Shown piece after piece: positions 9,025-56,312 of a stretch of DNA of 64,000 bases. Every line of letters begins with the position of its first letter. Within the stretch, counting starts at the first letter, position 1. Position numbers and translations under genes: made by a program. This stretch comes from Tieghemostelium lacteum. Its lineage: Eukaryota; Evosea; Eumycetozoa; Dictyosteliales; Raperosteliaceae. The stretch covers positions 1,292,658 to 1,356,657 of the forward strand of contig LODT01000035.1 of NCBI GenBank assembly GCA_001606155.1, read 5' to 3'. The notes under the pieces were generated by a model. The model saw only the letters and a list, made by a program, of their open reading frames with translations. It was not told where the DNA came from and did not search any database.

Positions 9025-12000
9025 TTAATTTGGTAAATAATGGGATAATTCAAATGGACAACCAGAAATGGATGTATTGTTTTCTGTTTTGTTGTCAGAT
9101 TGTAGTGCACATTTGATATCGATGATAAATGGTGATTTTAAATTGGTTAAATCTATAGTGAATTCAATGGGAAGTTGATTGGTTGTATAATTGATACCAG
9201 GATGTTGGAATGTATTCAAATCAATTTTATCGATAATTTTAGTTTGGAATAGGTTCTTTGAGGCCTCATCTAAACTCTCTGGTTTTAATCTACAATATAT
9301 TTTACCATGTAGTTTGTTGTTTAGTTCCTTTAGTTTATCAACATAGAAGAGAGTTGAAATTAGACGATTACCTAGGAATTTGATACCATTTTGAGCTTGT
9401 TCACTTTTAATATATTTCTCTGAGGCTGTTACTAGTTTGGTAACAGATGCATCGTCTACAGCTGCCAAATCAATGTCTTCATCCAATAAAGGAGTGAGAC
9501 GAATGGAATTTTGTGTATTTAGACTTGGTGACAAATCTGTCCATGTACTTTCACATTCAGTTAGAATATTAATTACCATAGATGCAAAGTTCTTTAGATT
9601 TTCAGAACGTTTATGCTTGTTATTTGTATAATGACCAGTACCTAGAGATGCAATGATATCTAACTTTTGGTTGGGCCAAAGAGTTAAAGCTTGATTATAT
9701 GCAACTTTACATGGATTATTATTATGAATACCACCATCAAGATATTCTTTACCTTGAAAGATAAATGGTGGGAAATAAGTTGGAGCAGCACTAGTGCCTT
9801 CTGCAGCATCAACAGTAGTTGAATCATGAATAGTATTGATGTTAGGATCTTTTCCACGATAGGATGCAAATAAGCATGCTTTATTGGATCCATCTGAATT
9901 ACATACTGAAGTTACTGCCACTTTAGGACTCAAATGTAGAGGTTTACCACTACCCAAAATTTCTGTAAAAACCTCCTTTTTTGGTGTTCTTTGAAATTGG
10001 GTATATTTAAAATTTTGAAATAATACACCAGAGAATCTACTAAAAAAGGAAGTTTTTTTAAAGATATCTTTACCTTTGGTACAGAATTTTTCTGTTAACT
10101 CATCAACTGTTATATTGGTTGTTGTTAGGGCTAAAGCTACCAGACCACCAGTACTAGTACCAACAATAAGATCAAAGAACTTATTTACAGGTAACCCAAA
10201 GAGTTGTTTTGATAACTCTTTAAGAATGTAACATTCAATGATACCACGAATACCTCCACCATCTAGAGACAGGACTCTATAACCTAAAGTTGGAGTAAAA
10301 TCAATGAGAGTACCATCAGCCAAATTTTGAATACATTGGCAGATTTTACATTTGTTTAGACCTTCTTTTATACAATGGTTACATAGTTGATGACCACATG
10401 GAGTACATGTACTCTCTGGAACACCAAGTAGACATCCAAAGCAAATTTTATCAGTTTTTATACCTTTATATTCAATATTTTCAGGTTCTTTAAAAGATAT
10501 CTCTTTTACATCTTTGGTAATACTGTTAAAGTATTCAACTAGATTCGAACTTTCAAACTCTGGCATATAATCACCAAACCAATCATAGTTTTGTTCAATA
10601 GTTTCTGTTATACCAAAGAGACCTAAGAAACCATTAAGTTTTTTCTTTAGAGGATAGGTTTCACTAGATTGATGTTTTTGATGGCTATCTTTGAAGTTTA
10701 CACAACCAATGGTTTTATCTGTTGTTGGTTGATGCTTACATGAACATGGGATATATTTATCAATCTCTTCAGATACCTGTTTAAGGTGGTCACTAAAGAG
10801 TTCTTTAGTGTGTTTAGAAATTTGAGTATTGGTTCTCTTGTGATGTCTTAAAAAGACTTCAAGAATTCTTGATTTTAATTTATCCAATGATTTTTCATAG
10901 ACTTGTGCCAATGTAAACTTTGGAGTTACAGATGAACTATAGTGATTGTGATAGGCTTTAAAGTAACCAGTAAGGTAACCAACAATAGTTTCAATTTGTT
11001 TATCATTCTCTTCCATTTCAGCTTGAAGTTTATGCATGTCTAATAGAACATTGGGGTTATCATTAAACTTTCCTATAGCCAAATACATCATTGACATTAC
11101 TCTTTCTCTGGTAATTGGAATTCTAGTTTTTAGATTCATTTTATCACTATATGATTCAGATAGCTTTTCATTAATTATTGGGTACAGTGACGTTATCAAT
11201 ACATCACTAAACTGTTTTTTAGTAATATCATTATCCTTAGCATTTGGAATATATACCACAGTAATGGATTTATAGAAATCATTTAATTCTGATGGTTTAT
11301 TACCAAATGAATCATCCATAAAATCTTTAGTTGATTCCGATACCTCTTTTAAACCAGCTTTTGCAACCAAATTAAAGACAATTATTAAATGTGGTTTTGT
11401 TGTCTTATTGGTACTAGAAGCAGAAATCTTACTAATCTCTTTTAATTGTTCAGTAATTGTACCTTTTTGATTTACACCTACAAATGTATAAACTACCACA
11501 TCAGAGAACATATAAAGCAACCTTGGATAAGATATTTTTACAAAAATCTCTCTATTTCTTCCAAATTCTTCCAATTCATTCTAAAATTATAATATATAAT
11601 TTTGGTATTAGTACTAAAATTTTGTTTTTTTGATTTTTTGTGTAAATCTAGATTATAAATACTTTTTCTAATTTTTGATTTGTAATTGGATGTTTAAGTG
11701 GTATTACTGAACCACCAATTCCTTCAGAATCTGTAATTAGATAATTTATATTTTTACCTTCAATTTGTAGTGTACCAGTATAGGAGCTGATATCAGATGA
11801 TGTAGATACAGTACTGCCTTGGTTGCCAGGAATTGGATATTCACCAGTCATATAAGATAACGGTGAAATTAGAGTTGATTTACCAGTACCAGTAGGACCA
11901 ATAAAACTAACCATTAGAAATACATCATCCTCATTTAAACCTGTATTAAACCATTTATTATCAGTACTGATTTTTTTTTCTTCCCAACTGACTGATAGTA

Positions 12001-12277
12001 ATTTACTGTTTTCTTCCATCTCTGTAAGCTGATTTGGTAATAGTTTATTATTCTTTTCAAATTCTAAAAAGGAACATATAAAAATACTTTTAAGGTGGTC
12101 TTCTAATTTCTCAACAGGATGTTTCAAAAACATTTTGTTTTTGTTGTGGACGTGATATTTATTATTACAATCTTCACAAACTATACCACATTTATTACAA
12201 AATTTGTATATGGGGCCATTATCTTTATCGTAATGGCCACAATGTTCTAAATTACTTAAAATACTATTTATATTCAT
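9025..12277 (-). CDS. B-box / P-loop GTPase / RING / patatin-like phospholipase fusion
   Basis: Two exons, 12277-11663 and 11580-9025, are joined in phase 0 (donor GTATTT, acceptor TTTTAG) to give 1056 residues. Domain order, residues approximate: B-box-like Cys/His cluster (15-60, CGHYD...CNKCGIVCEDC); P-loop NTPase (128-320) with G1 GPTGTGKS, Thr-rich switch I and G3 DSEG; an alpha-helical part; a RING finger (583-623, CFGC...CTPCGHQLCNHC...CKIC); then a patatin domain (635-960). The patatin oxyanion loop is GGGIRG, the Ser nucleophile lies in GTSTGG, and the Asp lies in DGGIHNNNP, so lipid acyl hydrolysis is expected. I infer a GTPase-gated, possibly ubiquitin-linked lipase. The GTPase resembles large GBP/VLIG-like types only loosely. 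The true start is the ATG at 12277. A decayed paralogue lies at 53656-56312. Confidence 0.88.
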
Positions 12278-14364: not shown

Positions 14365-15440
14365 CAATTTTAATTTTTTTTTTTTCCCTGCTAAAATACC
14401 TAGACTACCAATCAAGGATCAACAACTCCAATGACGATGTTAAACTTAAATTTGAATTCAATAGAAACTGGCAAACAGTTTACAATCCTCTACCAATTAC
14501 ATTAATAGTTTAAAAAAAAAATTTTTTTACGATGAATATGTAATATGATAGTCTTTATTTTATGAATACGAATAACAGAGTTGAGCTCGGAATAATAGAT
14601 GTATGATGTGATTATGATGTGATATGAGATGAGATGGTCTGAGATGTGTGAGAGTAATGATAGATACTATCGTTACGGCTACACGATCAACTATTTTAAT
14701 AGATAACACCTCCCAATCTCCCAATAAATAAAAATTTAATCATTATAGTTGTAATGCTAGTGACATTTTTTCACACAAAAATAAAAAAATGTAAACGTAT
14801 TGGATAAATATAAAGACTATTATATAACATATTCATCTTAGTTATAAAAACAATGGTACTTGATCCCTATACTAAATCACTGATGCCTATGAATGCAACA
14901 TTGGGATTCTTGATAGTTGAAGGTCAGCTGGTTACTTTAGTCGTTGTTCTCCAAATTTAATTAATAATGTGCATTCTGCAGGTGTCCCACAAGTTTCCTA
15001 TGTAGTCACACAATAGAATTGGTTTTAAATTTAAAGAATTTATAGATTTTACAAATTGTTGAATGACAAAAGGCCCATTAACAGCTTTATCTACAGCATC
15101 ATTCCATTTGGGTCCATTTCATTACCTATAAATATACCCCTTCCTCTTGTATCTGTTGAACTTTTCACAACATATAAATTCTTGTTATCCATTATGGTTT
15201 TTTTAAGTTTCATCATTTCAGGATTAAACCATACTTATCTAAATTTCCATTTACTTTCTATTATAAACCTGAGGTGTAACACAAATCTACAAGCCCATTA
15301 ATTCCAATCTTAATCATAACATTAAACTGCAAGCCACTAGATCAAAAACAAATAATTGAAACTAACACAATAAAATAATGGATTAAACAAAATAAAATTG
15401 AATAATATTCAGACATTAAAATTTTTTTAAAAAGATAAAA
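14365..15440. other. Gene-poor spacer downstream of the tRNA, holding LTR relics
   Basis: These 1,076 bases lie between the tRNA and the first actin-like gene. They contain the Pol III T-run terminator, a fossil LTR-like segment with an imperfect inverted repeat (14531-14837), and a degraded coding-like stretch on the minus strand (about 15001-15310). The last 120 bases before 15441 are AT-rich and probably hold the actin promoter. No intact gene is visible. Confidence 0.5.
14531..15310 (-). mobile_element. Fossil LTR retroelement fragment, possibly Ty1/copia-like
   Basis: On the minus strand a purine tract (complement of 14709-14724, TTGGGAGATTGGGAGG) is followed directly by TGTTATCTATT. 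The sequence then runs to ATTACA near 14539, about 170 bases in all, which resembles a polypurine tract plus a short LTR. A second copy of the terminal 33-35 bases lies inverted at 14803-14837. Between 15001 and 15310 the minus strand has peptide-like sequence with coding character but several breaks. I cannot assign it to a pol domain with confidence. The element is broken, fragmentary and probably old. Confidence 0.35.
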
Positions 15441-16598
15441 ATGGATGACACACCAGAAACAATAGTAATTGATAATGGTAGTTATTATACAAAGGCAGGA
15501 TTTGCAGGTGATGATGCACCAAGATCAATTTTTCCAACAATTGTTGGTATGAAAAAAAACAATTACAACAATAGTGGTCATCAAAAGATAGTAAACAGTA
15601 TAGGTTTAAAAGATTCCTATATAGGTGATGAAGTTTTATCAAAGAAAAGGTTTTTAGATTTATATTACCCAATAGAGTATGGTGAAATTACAGATTGGGA
15701 TAAAATGGAAAAACTTTGGAAACATATATTTGTAAATGAATTAAGAGTTGAATCTAGTGAACATCCACTGATTATAACTCATTCGTCATTGTCAACTAAA
15801 CAGACTAAGGATAAGATAACAGAGATAATGTTTGAGACTTTTAAAATACCTTCTTTATATGTAGCTGATCAATCACTGATGGCTTTGTATTCTAGTGGTA
15901 GAAATGAAGGTGTTGTATTGGATTCTGGTGATCAATGCACACTTAGTGTACCTATAATTGCAGATCAAGTTCAAACCAATAGTATTAAGAAAATGAATTT
16001 AGGTGGTAGAGATTTAAGTAAATATTTAGTAGAATTACTAAACCAAAAAGGTTACCAGAGTGATGATTTAAATAATTATGAATATACAAGATATAACATA
16101 AAAGAGAAATTATGTTATAGTGCTTTGGATTTTGAACTCGAGGTATCAACAGTTAATAATACAGCAGTTGAGAAATCATATGAATTGCTAGATGGTAATT
16201 TTATTACTGTTGGTAATGAAAGATTTAGATGTACAGAATCACTATTTCAACCATCACATTTACAAAAGGAAATGGATGGTATTCATCAACTATGTTTTAA
16301 TTCCATAATGAATTGTCCAATTGAAACTAGATATAGATTATTTAATAATATTATATTGTGTGGTGGTAATACAATGTTTGATGGTTTAAAATCAAGAATG
16401 GAAAAAGAGTTAACAGCTCTGGCTTCTTCCTATTATAAAATTAGAATCATTTCATCACCAGAGAGAAAATATTCATCTTTTATTGGTTCCTCTATTAGAG
16501 CTTCCATTGCCACTTTTAGAGATGTTGTGATCTCAAAAAGGGAATATGATGAAGTTGGTGCTTATAAATCATTTCAATCAAAAAAATTTTTATTCTAA
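15441..16598 (+). CDS. Divergent actin-like protein 1
   Basis: The product has 385 residues in one exon, actin length plus a small insertion. The actin fold is clear end to end: DNGSYYTKAGFAGDDAPR (phosphate loop 1), KDSYIGDEVLSKK, PIEYGEITDWDKMEKLW, NELRVESSEHPLI, VLDSGDQ (phosphate loop 2), KEKLCYSALDFE, KSYELLDGNFITVGNERFRC, CGGNTMFDGL and PERKYSSFIGSSI. The Gln equivalent to actin Q137 is kept (VADQSLMALYSSGR). Differences include Asn insertions after IVGMKK in the DNase-I loop area, replacement of the GVSHTVPIYEGYALPHA region, and a diverged C-terminus lacking HRKCF. ATP binding is plausible; assembly into ordinary filaments is uncertain. Dictyostelids carry several such outlier actins. 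Confidence 0.88.
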   Translation: MDDTPETIVIDNGSYYTKAGFAGDDAPRSIFPTIVGMKKNNYNNSGHQKIVNSIGLKDSYIGDEVLSKKRFLDLYYPIEYGEITDWDKMEKLWKHIFVNELRVESSEHPLIITHSSLSTKQTKDKITEIMFETFKIPSLYVADQSLMALYSSGRNEGVVLDSGDQCTLSVPIIADQVQTNSIKKMNLGGRDLSKYLVELLNQKGYQSDDLNNYEYTRYNIKEKLCYSALDFELEVSTVNNTAVEKSYELLDGNFITVGNERFRCTESLFQPSHLQKEMDGIHQLCFNSIMNCPIETRYRLFNNIILCGGNTMFDGLKSRMEKELTALASSYYKIRIISSPERKYSSFIGSSIRASIATFRDVVISKREYDEVGAYKSFQSKKFLF

Positions 16599-16740
16599 AA
16601 CTTGTAAATAATATTATTATTAAATTCAAAGAACATAATAATTAATTCTTATTACTTTCTAAAACTAAAATTTTATTTTTTTTTGAGTAAAGAACATAAA
16701 TATCATCTAAAAAACGATAAAATGATATATCAAAAATAAA

Positions 16741-17739
16741 ATGAGTGATCAATTTAAAGCGATAGTAATTGATAATAGTTATAATTTAAAAGCTGGTTTT
16801 TCAAATGAAAATGAACCATCTATACAATTTAATTCAGATATATTAGGTAAACAAGCACCATCAAATAATAATAATGAAATATTGGAGGATTGGGAACATA
16901 GAATTAGTTTATGGAGAATGATATATAATAAATTGGGTGTTAATAGTGAAGAATATCCAGTTATAATATCAGAACAACCTATAAATCCAAAAATGAATAG
17001 ATTAAAAACCATTGAATATCTATTTGAGGAATTTAATGCATCTGCTGCTTACATGTCTCAAAGTTCATTATTGACAATGTATTCAATGGGCATAATTAGT
17101 GGTATGGTATTGGAATGTGGTCATTCATCTAGTTATGCATTACCAGTTTACGAAGCATATGCATTACCAAACGCCATTAAAAAGTTATCTATTGCTGGTA
17201 AACATTTAGATAAATATTTATCTGATTTGTTATCACCACAACATTATGGTTCTATAGATATAGATTCCATTAGACAATTAAAAGAAACTTTATCATTATC
17301 TTCTTCACAAGAACAGAATTTAAACTATAAATTACCAGATGGTAGAGAATTAACATTAAATAGTAATGCTTTGAAATGTCCAGAATCATTATTTAATCCT
17401 GAAATTTTAGGGTGCAGTGAAAAGGGAATTCATCAATTACTATATGGTTCCTATTTATCATGTCCTGATGAGTATCAATCACATATAAATCAAAATTGTA
17501 ATTTTGTATTATCAGGTGGTTCAACAAAATTTAAAGGTTTTTCTGATAGATTATCATTAGAGATTACTAAACTTTTTACCTCACTTTCTGGTAAACCAAA
17601 TATTATAATACCACCAAATCCTTCAACAAGTGCTTGGAAAGGTGGTGCTTCTTTAGTTTCAAACCTTGGTAGTTTTTGGATTAGAAAATCTGAATATTTA
17701 GAATCTGGTCCTTCTATTGTTGAAAGAAAATGTTTTTAA
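16741..17739 (+). CDS. Divergent actin-like protein 2, D-loop region missing
   Basis: The product has 332 residues in one exon, about 45 shorter than actin. After IDNSYNLKAGFSNENEP the chain passes through SDILGKQAPSNNNN straight to EILEDWEHRISLW. The subdomain-2 segment around the DNase-I-binding loop is therefore replaced by a short Asn linker. The phosphate loops are altered: DNGSG became DNSYN, and VLDSGDG became VLECGHS with Glu at the D154 position. The C-terminus ESGPSIVERKCF is nearly identical to conventional actin, so it derives from a true actin, not from an Arp. It sits 142 bases after the first actin-like gene on the same strand and looks like a tandem relative. Filament formation and ATP hydrolysis are doubtful. 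Confidence 0.88.
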   Translation: MSDQFKAIVIDNSYNLKAGFSNENEPSIQFNSDILGKQAPSNNNNEILEDWEHRISLWRMIYNKLGVNSEEYPVIISEQPINPKMNRLKTIEYLFEEFNASAAYMSQSSLLTMYSMGIISGMVLECGHSSSYALPVYEAYALPNAIKKLSIAGKHLDKYLSDLLSPQHYGSIDIDSIRQLKETLSLSSSQEQNLNYKLPDGRELTLNSNALKCPESLFNPEILGCSEKGIHQLLYGSYLSCPDEYQSHINQNCNFVLSGGSTKFKGFSDRLSLEITKLFTSLSGKPNIIIPPNPSTSAWKGGASLVSNLGSFWIRKSEYLESGPSIVERKCF

Positions 17740-17868
17740 ATATATATTTTGTGGTTTGATTAGAATCTCTTATATTATATGATTCATACTTTGAAATAAA
17801 TGTAAAATGTGTTAAAACACACTTGAATTAAAAAAAATTTTAAAGTGGTGTTTGAACATAAACACTTT

Positions 17869-18864
17869 ATGATAAAATTTAATAGAGTATCAAGATTATT
17901 CTATTTTAATAAAATGTCAAATAATATTGATTCACAAAGTGCAATATTACCAGAACATTGTAAATTTGGAATTTATCTAACATCAAAAGTAAATTTAAAA
18001 AATGAGAATGATAAAACAACACTAAAGAATGGATTATCAAAATTTATACAAGAAATGAATAGAATAGAAAAAGAATATCCAGATACAGGTATAGGTAGTG
18101 TTGTATCATTTGGTTATGATTTATTAGGAAAACTAACAAGTAGTTATCCAGGTGGATATGAAATGCCAAAAGGTTTTAAAAATATGATACCTATTGGCTC
18201 AGCACCAAGCACTCAAAGTGATATATTTATTCACATTTTGGGTAATAGATTTGATGTAGCATTTCATGCTGCTGAAAATTTCTATTTTACTTTTAGAGAT
18301 TGTGGAATTTTAGAGATTCAAGATGAACAACATGGTTTTAGACGTTTAGAAGAACGTGATGAAACTGGCTTTATAGATGGAACTGAAAATCCCACTGGTT
18401 TAGATAAAAGAGTTAGATTTGGTCTAATAGCAAAAGGTGACCCACACGAATATGGTAGTTATGTATTTCCTCAAAAGTGGGAGCATAATCTAGTAAAATG
18501 GGAGAAAATCTCATTACATGAACAACAAGATACCATTGGTCGTACAAAAAAAGAATCTATTGAAATTCCAAAAGGTAAAAGACAAGTTTCTAGTCATGTA
18601 TCTAGAACAGATCTAAAAGATAATGGTGTTTCTTTAAAAATTATACGTCAATCTTTACCCTATGGAATGTTATCAAAAAAGGAACATGGTTTATATTTTT
18701 TAGCTTATGCATGTTCTCTTGTAAACATTGAAAAACAATTACTTTCTATGTTTGGTCAATTAGATGGTAAATCTGATTTGTTATTACAATATACTAAACC
18801 TATAACTGGTGGTTATTATTTTGCACCATCATTAAATGAATTAAATAAAATTCTAAATTCATAA
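17869..18864 (+). CDS. dypA: Dye-decolorizing (DyP-type) haem peroxidase
   Basis: DyP peroxidases use haem and hydrogen peroxide to oxidise dyes and phenolics. The GxxDG signature is present as GFIDGTENPTG, the proximal His lies in SSHVSRTD, and the distal Arg segment is IIRQSLPYG; length fits the family. Two starts are possible. The ATG at 17869 gives 331 residues with a basic, hydroxyl-poor leader (IKFNRVSRLFYFNK) that could be a mitochondrial presequence. The ATG at 17914 (MSNNIDSQ) gives 316 residues and a cytosolic enzyme, which matches the usual family start. I list the longer form with equal doubt. D. discoideum has a DyP of this kind. Confidence 0.92.
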   Translation: MIKFNRVSRLFYFNKMSNNIDSQSAILPEHCKFGIYLTSKVNLKNENDKTTLKNGLSKFIQEMNRIEKEYPDTGIGSVVSFGYDLLGKLTSSYPGGYEMPKGFKNMIPIGSAPSTQSDIFIHILGNRFDVAFHAAENFYFTFRDCGILEIQDEQHGFRRLEERDETGFIDGTENPTGLDKRVRFGLIAKGDPHEYGSYVFPQKWEHNLVKWEKISLHEQQDTIGRTKKESIEIPKGKRQVSSHVSRTDLKDNGVSLKIIRQSLPYGMLSKKEHGLYFLAYACSLVNIEKQLLSMFGQLDGKSDLLLQYTKPITGGYYFAPSLNELNKILNS

Positions 18865-27693: not shown

Positions 27694-28905
27694 CTAAAGG
27701 TTTTTTAAAGTTTGAAGATTTGATGAAACTTGACTTGTAAGACCTTCAATTGGTTTACCTACAAAATCGATGGCACCAGAAACTGGTTTAACAACAACAC
27801 CCATTAAACCACTACCTAAACCTTTGAAAAATCCTTTTGCACCCTGTTGTTGTGCACCATTTATAGGGTCCATTACAACACCAGTGACACCATCAAATAT
27901 ATTTTTACTCAGTGATAGAGTACCTTGAAAAATACCTTCTAGAATGTTATCAGCCTCCTTTTCACGTTGATGAAAAGTATCTAAATTATTTGGATCATTT
28001 TTATCAGAAAATATAGCATTTGGTGTATTTCTTAGACCTTCACTAGTCTTTGTTAGGAATCCTGCTGTACCTTTAATTGGATTAATAACAGCTCCACCTA
28101 AACCCACACCAACACCTTTAAAAAAACCTTTTGCACCTTCTTTTTTAATACCTTCTTTTGGCTCTAAAACTATTCCTTTAGCACCAGTTAAAAAACCATT
28201 GATACCCAATTTTACACCATCTACTATACCTTTACCTACATGTTCTGCCTCTCTATTCTTTTTCTCTTCTTCCTCATTAAAATCATCAACTTCACCGTCT
28301 TCCAAAGCACATGAATTTGATCTAAATTCATATTCATTTGTAAATGTAACCATATTCTTTTTATCTTGTTTATCATTTTCATTATCTTCGTTAACTATTG
28401 TTTTACTATTATTACTATTATTATTATTATTATTATTGGTAGCACTATTATTATTGGTAATAGATTTTCTTGCAATTAAAGGTGAATTTTTAGCTTGAAA
28501 AGTATCAGAATCGTCATATTCATATTCAGAAGGTAGTTTTTGAATAGAGGACTGATCTTTTCTTTCTATAATTGGACTATTACTATTTGTACTATTACTA
28601 CTACCAGTACTTAATTTTAATTTATTATTACCGCTACTGGTGATGGCATTTCTATTCTCTTTTAATGTGTTGATGGTTTCACCAACTATTAGATCTTTAC
28701 CTAGTTGATGTAATATATTCGAATTGATTTCCTCTGTATTAACTCTAATGTGTAATGCAACACTGGAATTGGTACTGTGAACTAATTGATCGCATTCCAC
28801 ACAAAATGTGTCCATACATGATTTACAATAATATTGTTTAATCTTATTATGTTGTAAACACATTTGATTTTCATTTTCATTATCATTCTTTTCTATAGAC
28901 ATCAT
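27694..28905 (-). CDS. B-box zinc-finger protein with two VPS13-like C-terminal modules
   Basis: The product has 403 residues in one exon. Residues 15-60 form a B-box (CLQHNKIKQYYCKSCMDTFC...CDQLVH). The centre is Asn/Ser-rich. From about residue 222 the chain holds two copies of a Gly/Lys-rich amphipathic module: first EAEHVGKGIVDGVKLGINGF through GFFKGVGVGLGGAVINPIKG, then EADNILEGIFQGTLSLSKNI through GFFKGLGSGLMGVVVKPVSG. The same phrase occurs once near the C-terminus of the VPS13 gene in this window (GDGFVYGVRGLGRGVYEGVA), where the ATG2/VPS13 C-terminal helices bind lipid droplets or membranes. I infer a membrane- or droplet-binding adaptor without a lipid-transfer channel. Confidence 0.83.
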   Translation of the reverse strand: MMSIEKNDNENENQMCLQHNKIKQYYCKSCMDTFCVECDQLVHSTNSSVALHIRVNTEEINSNILHQLGKDLIVGETINTLKENRNAITSSGNNKLKLSTGSSNSTNSNSPIIERKDQSSIQKLPSEYEYDDSDTFQAKNSPLIARKSITNNNSATNNNNNNNSNNSKTIVNEDNENDKQDKKNMVTFTNEYEFRSNSCALEDGEVDDFNEEEEKKNREAEHVGKGIVDGVKLGINGFLTGAKGIVLEPKEGIKKEGAKGFFKGVGVGLGGAVINPIKGTAGFLTKTSEGLRNTPNAIFSDKNDPNNLDTFHQREKEADNILEGIFQGTLSLSKNIFDGVTGVVMDPINGAQQQGAKGFFKGLGSGLMGVVVKPVSGAIDFVGKPIEGLTSQVSSNLQTLKNL

Positions 28906-29047
28906 TCTTTACACTCTTCTTGCTTTTTATTATATCAAGTAATCAAAAAAAAAAAAATACTTATCCTGTCTTTTTTTGTGTGGTTATTACAACGTAAAAA
29001 ATGGTTTTCAATTGGAGATTTGGATTTTTTTTTTTTTTTTGTTTAAT

Positions 29048-53655: not shown

Positions 53656-55791
53656 TTATTCATTTTTATTTTTGAGAAGTGATTGAAAATTCAATGGACA
53701 ACCTGAAATTGAAGTGTGATTTGTTTCGTTATGTTTACATTTAATATTACATCGAATATCAATTATAGGATATTGATTATCATTATCAATTGGTGGCATG
53801 GTGATGGTAAATGGAATTTCAATAGTATTACTTCCTTTTATCATGGGAGAGAGTTTAAGTGAATGGTAATTTACCAAATCCGAAGTGGCGAGAGTGAATG
53901 AGGTGTTATCAATATGATCTAATACTTCTTTAGGTAGTTGATGTGGAAGTCTATGTTTAATACTTCCATTCAATTGTATTCCATTCTTGTTGTTTTTAAA
54001 TATTGTTAAATTATCTATATAGAATAGAGATGAGAGTAATTTACTACAGATTCTATTCAGATCATACATAAACTTTGAATAACTATCAATGTTATAATAA
54101 AATCTATCATTTGTTTCTCTTGATAAACCACTAATAACAACAATATCAGATTCCTTCGTTGGCCATAATTTTTTTACAGCTATTTGATAAATAGAGCTAT
54201 TTGGTTCATTTGGAATGGATGGGAAATACAAAGGTTTGTTTAGTCCCCATTCATTGTTTGCTTTAGATAAAAGTAGTATTTTTACATTTGAAAGGACAAC
54301 ATTTTCTTGGCGATTTACTTCACGGTATTTCAGATTTACCTCATCACTAAAGTCTTTCTCGATTTTATAATAAAAACTGTCATCTAATATGATAAAATCA
54401 AACAGATATATTAGTGGAATATCGTAAACCTGCCCACCTATTTTGTATTCCCAATGAACTAGATTTATATAATTCAGTGATAAAACTCTGTAACCAACAT
54501 GTGGATGAAAATCAACCATACGATCTGAAGTTATTGTGGTGGGTTGTTGACAAATTTTACATTTTCCTTGGTAATAGGGGTCTGATTTTTCATCTCTACA
54601 ATTTTGACAAACCAAATGATTGCATGGATAATTACGTTGAATTGGTCTTTCAATTAAACATCCAAGACAAATCTCGAGTTTATAAGGTTCTAATTCAATA
54701 TAATTGATTTGATTCATGATTGGTTTTGGAGATTTATCTCGAATTTGTTGTTCAAGATGTTGATAGAAGTCTGGTAATTTTAATTCAATTCCATTTCTAT
54801 ATTTACCTGGCCAATGGTAGTATAGATCTACACCTCTCAAGAATGAATCTATATATTTAAATAATCCATTTTCTCTAAGAGACACTTTATGAGATTTTGA
54901 TGATTGGTGTTTAAAATGGTATAGGGAATTTGAATCACATGAGATATTGGGATGATCTGGATGTATTACATTACATGGTAAAATATCTTGAATTAATTGT
55001 ACCAATCGATGTTTAGTGAACATTTTAAATGAAAATGCTTTTTCAATATCAACTTCTGATATGCTGAGATAAATATCATACAATCGATTTTTCAAATCTT
55101 CAATTGCCATTTCTTGTGATTTAGATTTCGATAATTTTTTATCATTATTACAGTTATTTTCTGTTTGAATTTCTATAAAAGCTAAAACTAAAATTTCAAG
55201 AGGTTCTCGTTCTTTTAGTTCTTCTAGTTCTTCTTCAAAAGAATCTTTTAACTTGTTGACTTTTTTAAGATTACTTAAATTTAAAGGTTTACCTGGGATA
55301 TTGAGTACATTAATTACCAATTTCATTAATTTAGTGTTGATAGTTGTTGGTTTACTAGAAATGGATTGGTGTGATTCAACCATCTTTTTCTTGATGAGTT
55401 GATATAACTTTTCTTGTTGTGATTGAAATCTTAGAAATTGATTATTACCACCTTCATTAGCATTAGGAATAGAAATGATGGTTATTGATTGATAGAATGA
55501 TTTCAATTGATTGAATTGTGACAATTGATGATCAATGTAGTGTTGTGTTGAGAATTCAAAATCATCAAATTCTATGTTCAATGATGATTTGTTGAATACA
55601 ATCACAAGATGTGGTTGTTTTGGTTGATTCAATACTGATGATGAGATGTTACTGAATTCAATAAGATCATCAAATACAGTTTTTACTTGTTTCTCACCAT
55701 TGAATGTGAAAATCAATACATCTGAGAATATATATAAAAATTTTGGGTATACCAATATTGCTTCTTTTCTCTTTTGGTTGTATTTATCCAT
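53656..55791 (-). CDS. Degenerate paralogue of the GTPase/RING/patatin protein, main exon
   Basis: An open frame of 711 residues is collinear with exon 2 of the fusion gene at 9025-12277. Shared phrases include YPKFLYIFSDVLIFTFNGEK versus YPRLLYMFSDVVVYTFVGVN, the intact RING (CLGC...CNHLVCQNC...CKIC, residues about 375-415), and the tails NHTSISGCPLNFQ versus NNTSISGCPFELS. The patatin core has lost its catalytic motifs. Where the other copy has GGGIRG this one reads LSLNYINLVHWEY; GTSTGG is replaced by ILDDSFYYK; and DGGIHNNNP is replaced by PNEPNSSIYQ. It is therefore a pseudo-lipase at best. The frame begins exactly at the acceptor (TTAAAG|ATG), so a product could start at that ATG. The missing front is described in the next entry. 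Confidence 0.8.
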   Translation of the reverse strand: MDKYNQKRKEAILVYPKFLYIFSDVLIFTFNGEKQVKTVFDDLIEFSNISSSVLNQPKQPHLVIVFNKSSLNIEFDDFEFSTQHYIDHQLSQFNQLKSFYQSITIISIPNANEGGNNQFLRFQSQQEKLYQLIKKKMVESHQSISSKPTTINTKLMKLVINVLNIPGKPLNLSNLKKVNKLKDSFEEELEELKEREPLEILVLAFIEIQTENNCNNDKKLSKSKSQEMAIEDLKNRLYDIYLSISEVDIEKAFSFKMFTKHRLVQLIQDILPCNVIHPDHPNISCDSNSLYHFKHQSSKSHKVSLRENGLFKYIDSFLRGVDLYYHWPGKYRNGIELKLPDFYQHLEQQIRDKSPKPIMNQINYIELEPYKLEICLGCLIERPIQRNYPCNHLVCQNCRDEKSDPYYQGKCKICQQPTTITSDRMVDFHPHVGYRVLSLNYINLVHWEYKIGGQVYDIPLIYLFDFIILDDSFYYKIEKDFSDEVNLKYREVNRQENVVLSNVKILLLSKANNEWGLNKPLYFPSIPNEPNSSIYQIAVKKLWPTKESDIVVISGLSRETNDRFYYNIDSYSKFMYDLNRICSKLLSSLFYIDNLTIFKNNKNGIQLNGSIKHRLPHQLPKEVLDHIDNTSFTLATSDLVNYHSLKLSPMIKGSNTIEIPFTITMPPIDNDNQYPIIDIRCNIKCKHNETNHTSISGCPLNFQSLLKNKNE

Positions 55792-55908
55792 CTTTAAGGG
55801 TAATTAAAGAATAATGAATGGATTATATTTTATCATGATTTTATTAATCAATAAAATAAAATATTAGTAATTTGTAATTAAGTGTTATAGTTATTCAAGT
55901 GTACATAC

Positions 55909-56312
55909 ATTTTTAATATTTTGGTGAATATAATTTTGATTTGGAATCACAGAACCACCTATTCCTTCACTATCAATGATAATGAATTTTTTGGGTTTAT
56001 CAATTAATGATTCATGAAAATCTGATTGTTTAAATTCACCATGATAAAAATTCAAATCAGATGATGTTGAGTTTGAATTTGATTTACTACCTGGAATGGG
56101 AAAAGAATGACTTTTATCATCTTTTTGGTGGCATAAAGGAGCAATTAAAGTTGTTTTCCACTTCCAGAAGGTCCAATAAAACTAACCATCATAAATGTTT
56201 CTGAATCATCAAATCCAAATTGATTTTTATCAGGTTTCCAAACAATATTATATTCTACATTTTTTTGTGTTTTGTCAAAAGAATCTATCGGTATAATCCG
56301 GTTGCTATGCAT
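55909..56312 (-). pseudogene. Broken first exon of the patatin-fusion paralogue
   Basis: Homology to exon 1 of the gene at 12277 starts near NRIIPIDSFDK (counterpart of SKLLSVSWEEK) and runs through VSFIGPSGSGK. It continues through the G3 motif IIDSEGIGGSVIP to a donor GTATGT at 55908. The B-box part (about 85 residues) is absent. The P-loop codons are out of frame with the following part by one base in an A run (about 56153-56157), so no continuous GTPase can be read. This could be a true deletion or a base-calling slip in a homopolymer. The intron 55908-55792 keeps phase and splice sites. Confidence 0.7.

Follow-up and report, generated by a model that had tools for sequence, protein, structure and literature searches.

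A Candidate G-Domain–Switched Patatin Effector with Noncatalytic Sister Copies in Tieghemostelium lacteum

Introduction

Patatins act in bacterial anti-phage defence, and P-loop–controlled patatins serve as cell-death effectors in fungi. In the fungal NLR-like protein PLP-1, which carries patatin, NB-ARC and TPR parts, cell death requires both patatin activity and the nucleotide-binding motif (PMC12881547). For D. discoideum, excerpts of a review of Dictyostelium defence name a single TRIM protein (PMC5758549), and those of a review on dynamin-type GTPases give a single GBP homologue (PMC8565484); neither set of excerpts mentions a fusion of G-like, RING and patatin parts. In a study of how D. 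discoideum responds to P. aeruginosa, one table gives negative values for a "patatin family protein" that carries no name (PMC2474670). No paper on this domain set was among the matches listed for open-licence full text.

Here we describe a gene from a 64,000-nucleotide stretch of the T. lacteum genome (hereafter, the window) that combines a P-loop G-like domain, a RING and a patatin lipase domain in one chain, and compare it with its sister copies and with these systems.

Results

Gene Structure

The gene lies on the minus strand of the window, and joining of exons 12277-11663 and 11580-9025 yields a protein of 1056 aa (Table 1). The original prediction, made from the DNA letters, had described a single 1056-residue chain with B-box, GTPase, RING and patatin parts, and this description stands: the frames are as it gave them, and the 851-codon exon 2 joins half of the G-like domain, the RING and the patatin. 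Within the range scanned, eight GT-AG choices keep the frame open at this gene, and nine do so in each of two paralogues, C35A and C35B (described below). Both paralogues can be spliced through a phase-0 GTATGT...TTAAAG intron that falls two columns from the window intron in a gapped alignment. Because C35A and C35B allow this near-coincident phase-0 intron, the 82-nt intron is preferred, and the paralogue intron position appears to support, rather than prove, the exon junction of the window gene. The fusion of the G-like half, RING and patatin is independent of splicing since all three lie within one open frame; as exon 2 holds everything else, doubt about the junction reaches no further than the B-box–like motif and the half-domain with the P-loop. 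That two or more adjacent genes were taken as one might be argued from the exon 1-exon 2 junction, which was derived from sequence, but exon 2 alone unites the G domain, RING and patatin, and the same order of parts recurs at the separate locus of the paralogues. Such an annotation artefact is very improbable. In comparisons of the window copy with the paralogues, dN/dS was 0.29-0.78 in every segment compared, at dS values of 0.8-2.3 that are near saturation, which would fit constraint along the whole chain.

Elsewhere in the window, two adjacent actin-like genes lie at 15420-17739 on the plus strand, one matching PF00022 at 2.4e-105 and the other, more divergent, at 6.6e-63 in two stretches. 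A Dyp-type peroxidase gene comes next, at 17827-18864.

Table 1. Coordinates of the window gene, its parts and the second family copy in the window
Feature	Position	Strand	Description
Exon 1	11663..12277	-	205 codons, phase 0; ATG, degenerate B-box–like zinc motif, P-loop (G1), DSEG (G3)
Intron	11581..11662	-	82 nt, phase 0, GTATTT...TTTTAG
Exon 2	9025..11580	-	851 open codons; remaining G-like domain, middle stretch, RING, patatin, conserved tail, TAA
B-box–like Cys/His cluster	12119..12241	-	Residues 13-53; irregular first ligand pair; missed by PF00643 in the window gene
P-loop GPTGTGKST	11873..11899	-	Residues 127-135; GPxGxGKST in 3/3 complete copies (window, C35A, C35B)
DSEGIGGS, G3-like	11708..11731	-	Residues 183-190; invariant in 3/3 complete copies
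IIVFNLVA, G4-like	11362..11385	-	Residues 271-278; lacks the usual Lys and Asp
C3HC4 RING	10339..10443	-	Residues 585-619
Patatin domain	9700..10272	-	Residues 642-832; PF01734 E=4e-27; Ser681/Asp820
Conserved C-terminal tail	9028..9315	-	Residues 961-1056 (TSISGCP); common to four copies
Second in-window copy, exon 2	53656..55791	-	Half of the G-like domain, RING, patatin remnant (no GGGxRG or GxSxG) and tail; open frame
Second in-window copy, 5'-truncated exon 1 and intron	55800..56280	-	92% DNA identity with C35B; no B-box part; frame interrupted in P-loop

Patatin Domain

By profile and motif, the assignment of residues 642-832 to the patatin family is certain. All three patatin motifs of the original prediction were located, with GGGIRG at residues 646-651, Ser681 within GTSTGG and Asp820 within DGG, and the predicted Ser681-Asp820 catalytic dyad is intact in the sequence. 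A genome search with PF01734 returned six genes, the window gene and five other patatins.

An analogy had been drawn with the lipase CapV. CBASS lipase models do match the window patatin, both that of PADLOC (8.5e-46, 154.8 bits) and NCBIfam NF041079 (7.9e-41, 140.3 bits, short of the curated cut-off of 200 bits), and its best PDB matches, at E of about 1e-19, include CapV-type enzymes. The analogy is not specific, however, as the models also match four of the genome's five other patatins. Their NF041079 scores are 175.8, 120.2, 114.6 and 30.8 bits, with no match for the fifth, and two of them score above the window patatin in PADLOC (193.5 and 155.3 bits). In a patatin tree built from 99 of 150 rows and limited to prokaryotes, plasmids, viral contigs and the present genome, the window patatin groups with C40, another patatin of T. 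lacteum (97/89). The C40 branch and some others are long, and the pairing is not secure because of the length of the C40 branch. The three CBASS-annotated plasmid genes used (L018, L019 and L022) form part of a separate 29-row clade (99/93), with the window patatin outside it. Together, the similar scores of the genome's other patatins and the tree undo the idea of a CapV-derived lipase acquired by gene transfer.

Seven viral rows adjoin the window patatin in the tree with modest support (93/79). A viral origin was also considered and rejected: a scan of viral_contigs with a profile running from the N terminus to the RING, which used two short peptide patterns, gave 165 pattern matches, none of them confirmed. 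Scans with the single patatin sequence returned zero loci in genome_contigs and one in viral_contigs. Among 165 prokaryotic, plasmid and viral loci, 146 of which have a plus-strand patatin ORF passing the motif filter, the longest such ORF, at 543 aa, is too short to hold the fusion; the eukaryotic search covered this genome, 23.3 Mb in 43 contigs. That 543-aa patatin frame (L160, a viral contig) has about 240 residues N-terminal to its patatin motif. Three of the seven adjoining viral loci were inspected and are tailed-phage-like, with a terminase in two and a tail-fibre-like frame in one. In L113 (2592-5056) and L153 (2511-4993) the patatin frame (phrog_25573, unknown function) directly follows the terminase large subunit, and in L140 (3374-6090) a patatin of this kind precedes the tail-fibre-like frame; these phage patatins represent a lipase within a phage structural module.

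The other patatin genes of T. lacteum give no sign of a defence-type architecture, and in one of them (C42) a PH-like stretch is seen by eye. This setting would suit a housekeeping enzyme of lipid metabolism that acts on the cell's own membranes or on lipid droplets, with the G-like, RING and zinc parts setting only location and turnover and the sister copies being decaying duplicates. The sister copies bear on this alternative, as discussed below.

B-Box–Like, G-Like and RING Parts

The Cys/His cluster described in the original prediction as a B-box is present, but its first pair is irregular and PF00643 misses the window gene. The B-box first-pair consensus is C-x2-C/H, and the pair in the window protein is C13-x-H15, not of that form. 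In a genome search with PF00643 at E up to 1, the window gene was absent among the 92 matches, and C35A and C35B scored 19.7 and 19.6 bits, below the cut-off of 24.1. The motif is only partly confirmed and, judged by these profiles, is probably the least secure part of the protein. The 92 matches themselves represent a large expansion of B-boxes in this genome, and another B-box protein is encoded in the window at 27697-28908 on the minus strand (26.9 bits in the genome search, over the cut-off, and 22.5 in the protein scan, just under).

The GTPase motifs GPTGTGKS and DSEG are present as predicted, and DSEGIGGSVIP is common to the window copy, C35A and C35B. The GTPase assignment itself is less complete, as MMR_HSR1 stays below its cut-off and where the G4 motif would be expected the window copy has NLVA and the paralogues have NKSS. 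Because G4 is nonstandard, nucleotide switching and guanine specificity are only putative. The MMR_HSR1 match is nearly full length and spans the splice, with E=0.018 for the whole window protein and 0.0018 for the isolated domain, both below the cut-off. Isolated G-like domains matched in all three complete copies, the best at 9.5e-6 and the window copy at 18.8 bits, under the 21.9-bit cut-off.

That the domain belongs to a large GTPase of the GBP kind was not supported. The genome search with PF02263 found only C17 (7.3e-41) and C33 (5.5e-4), no family gene, and none of 11 matches to PF00350 lay in family genes; as both searches find other members, GBP/dynamin membership was rejected. Pfam scans of the window protein, the paralogues and the isolated G-like domains likewise gave no GBP, dynamin or VLIG-type model. 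An hhalign comparison with 35 P-loop ORFs from the loci collected here, weak because the templates were single sequences, placed SMG9 of the same genome at the top (87%, 73 columns, from G1 to G3), ahead of a runner-up at 62% over 21 columns, GBP at 1.3% and a dynamin at 0.3%. C. elegans SMG-9 was a weak PDB match (E=0.11), behind a P-loop–only match at 0.0087. These comparisons weakly suggest that, among the G domains tested, SMG9 is the nearest.

The full RING of the original prediction was borne out in its ligands, C585, C588, C600, H602, C605, C608, C616 and C619, though a Pfam scan of the window protein at E up to 1 gives no RING. All four family copies carry the eight C3HC4 ligands with RING spacing. 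Profile matches are weak (zf-RING_10 at 0.0094 in C35B; the TRAF6 RING at E=0.0027 for the window protein among PDB sequences). In 2000 shuffles of the window protein, the RING pattern and the ordered patatin triple each arose 0 times and the P-loop 102 times. A further RING match, in C23, was rejected as a family member; it falls in a 392-aa ORF whose RING is of another, classical-looking kind.

Paralogue Family

A genome search revealed C35A (914 aa) and C35B (908 aa), a tandem pair on a different contig whose parts are arranged as in the window protein, and a fourth copy within the window at 53656-56280. This family of sister copies was missed by the original prediction. The fourth copy, truncated at its 5' end and broken in the P-loop, has an abrupt start on the minus strand near 56280, with another frame ending a few hundred bases away. 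Its match to C35B extends through the intron, and this suggests that it arose by duplication of DNA and not by copying from mRNA.

In C35A, C35B and the broken copy the patatin core is gone, the missing stretch starting at the oxyanion loop, taking in the nucleophile and reaching DGG, and the PF01734 genome search lists none of the three. The edges of the remnant are kept in all of them, namely YRVxSL, a stretch around WPxxESDIVV, SSLFYxDNL and the TSISGCP tail. Retention of the RING ligands throughout the family, when only one copy in four has the catalytic patatin motifs, would be expected of a ubiquitin ligase family in which the RING and a G-like switch are active in every copy and the patatin was added to bind membranes or transfer acyl groups. 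Active E3 RINGs commonly carry Pro or Arg/Lys at the last ligand pair, where the E2 is contacted. The last pair reads KICQ in all four copies, lacking these residues, and together with the weak RING scores and the intact catalytic motifs of the window patatin this speaks against a ligase family, which we regard as unlikely.

The remnant diverges rapidly. Among C35A, C35B and the broken copy its dN is 0.26-0.32, compared with 0.05-0.08 in the preceding part. Between C35A and C35B, dN in the remnant is 0.255 against a dS of 0.100 (p=0.02), or 0.145 against 0.028 under a strict filter (p=0.03), both p values being uncorrected. In both pairs that involve the broken copy, remnant dN is about equal to dS (p 0.66 to 1), and dS is itself raised there, 0.29-0.30 compared with 0.10-0.13. 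Identity in 40-column blocks drops elsewhere too, for example at C35A residues 81-120 and 469-548. Positive selection on the remnant was considered and set aside, as dN exceeds dS in one of three pairs only; fast change is shown, selection is not. The pattern indicates that the remnant is coding and fast-changing, and its rapid change may reflect selection, relaxed constraint or gene conversion around the remnant.

For the housekeeping alternative, in which the sisters are decaying duplicates, the near equality of dN and dS in the pairs with the broken copy, the raised dS there and the 5' breakage of one of three sisters are what would be expected. Simple decay is at odds with the C35A/C35B pair, however, in which all five remnant indels are multiples of three at 85% DNA identity, so that the frame survives, and the G-domain and RING blocks are 0.93-1.00 identical. 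On balance, a housekeeping role is possible, though we lean against it.

Discussion

Our preferred, still tentative, reading is that the window gene is a single gene for a G-domain–switched multidomain patatin effector with noncatalytic sisters, resembling the fungal P-loop–patatin death proteins. In such a mechanism, nucleotide binding or turnover would drive self-assembly, while the zinc modules would bind partners or the ubiquitin machinery and put the protein on its target membrane. There the patatin, with its Ser681-Asp820 dyad, would cut phospholipids, as its family suggests. The core-deleted sisters, which share the front end, could join the assembly as inhibitors, baits or sensors. The self-contained, controlled lipase put forward in the original prediction is plausible as a candidate reading.

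The immune role put forward in the original prediction would be conjecture here as well, and the fast-changing remnant is a suggestive hint of it only. A more specific version, in which a lethal G-switched patatin is checked by sisters whose excised patatin forms a fast-diversifying recognition surface, as part of a lineage-specific self/non-self or pathogen-response system, seems to us a long shot. If the effector reading is correct, a genetically tractable amoebozoan group would have its own candidate P-loop–patatin effector, with a RING and with noncatalytic, fast-changing sisters. Even outside immunity, a lipase accompanied by partners that share its front end but lack the core would be a testable case of pseudoenzyme regulation.

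How does this architecture compare with known systems? The P-loop and DxEG of the GBP/dynamin superfamily are also found in the window protein, and the GBP motif spacing resembles that of the window protein. Alignment of SMG9 with the window G-like domain stops at G3, the family genes are not listed by a genome search with the SMG9 profile PF10220, and to our knowledge SMG9 has neither RING nor patatin. RING and B-box–like zinc motifs are features of TRIM proteins, but in the window protein their order is reversed, the G-like domain lies between them and the B-box is missed by PF00643; judged from this arrangement, TRIM membership is not supported. With CBASS CapV the window protein shares the patatin fold. 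The closest functional precedent that we found, by analogy, would be PLP-1 (PMC12881547). An NB-ARC match was obtained for C35A only, over the P-loop at residues 127-161 (12.7 bits against a cut-off of 23.5), and NB-ARC is absent from the Pfam matches of the window protein (E up to 1); Pfam scans of the window protein and paralogues gave no TPR model. The patatin is N-terminal in PLP-1, whereas in the window protein it is C-terminal and accompanied by a RING, but both proteins unite a P-loop NTPase and a patatin in one chain.
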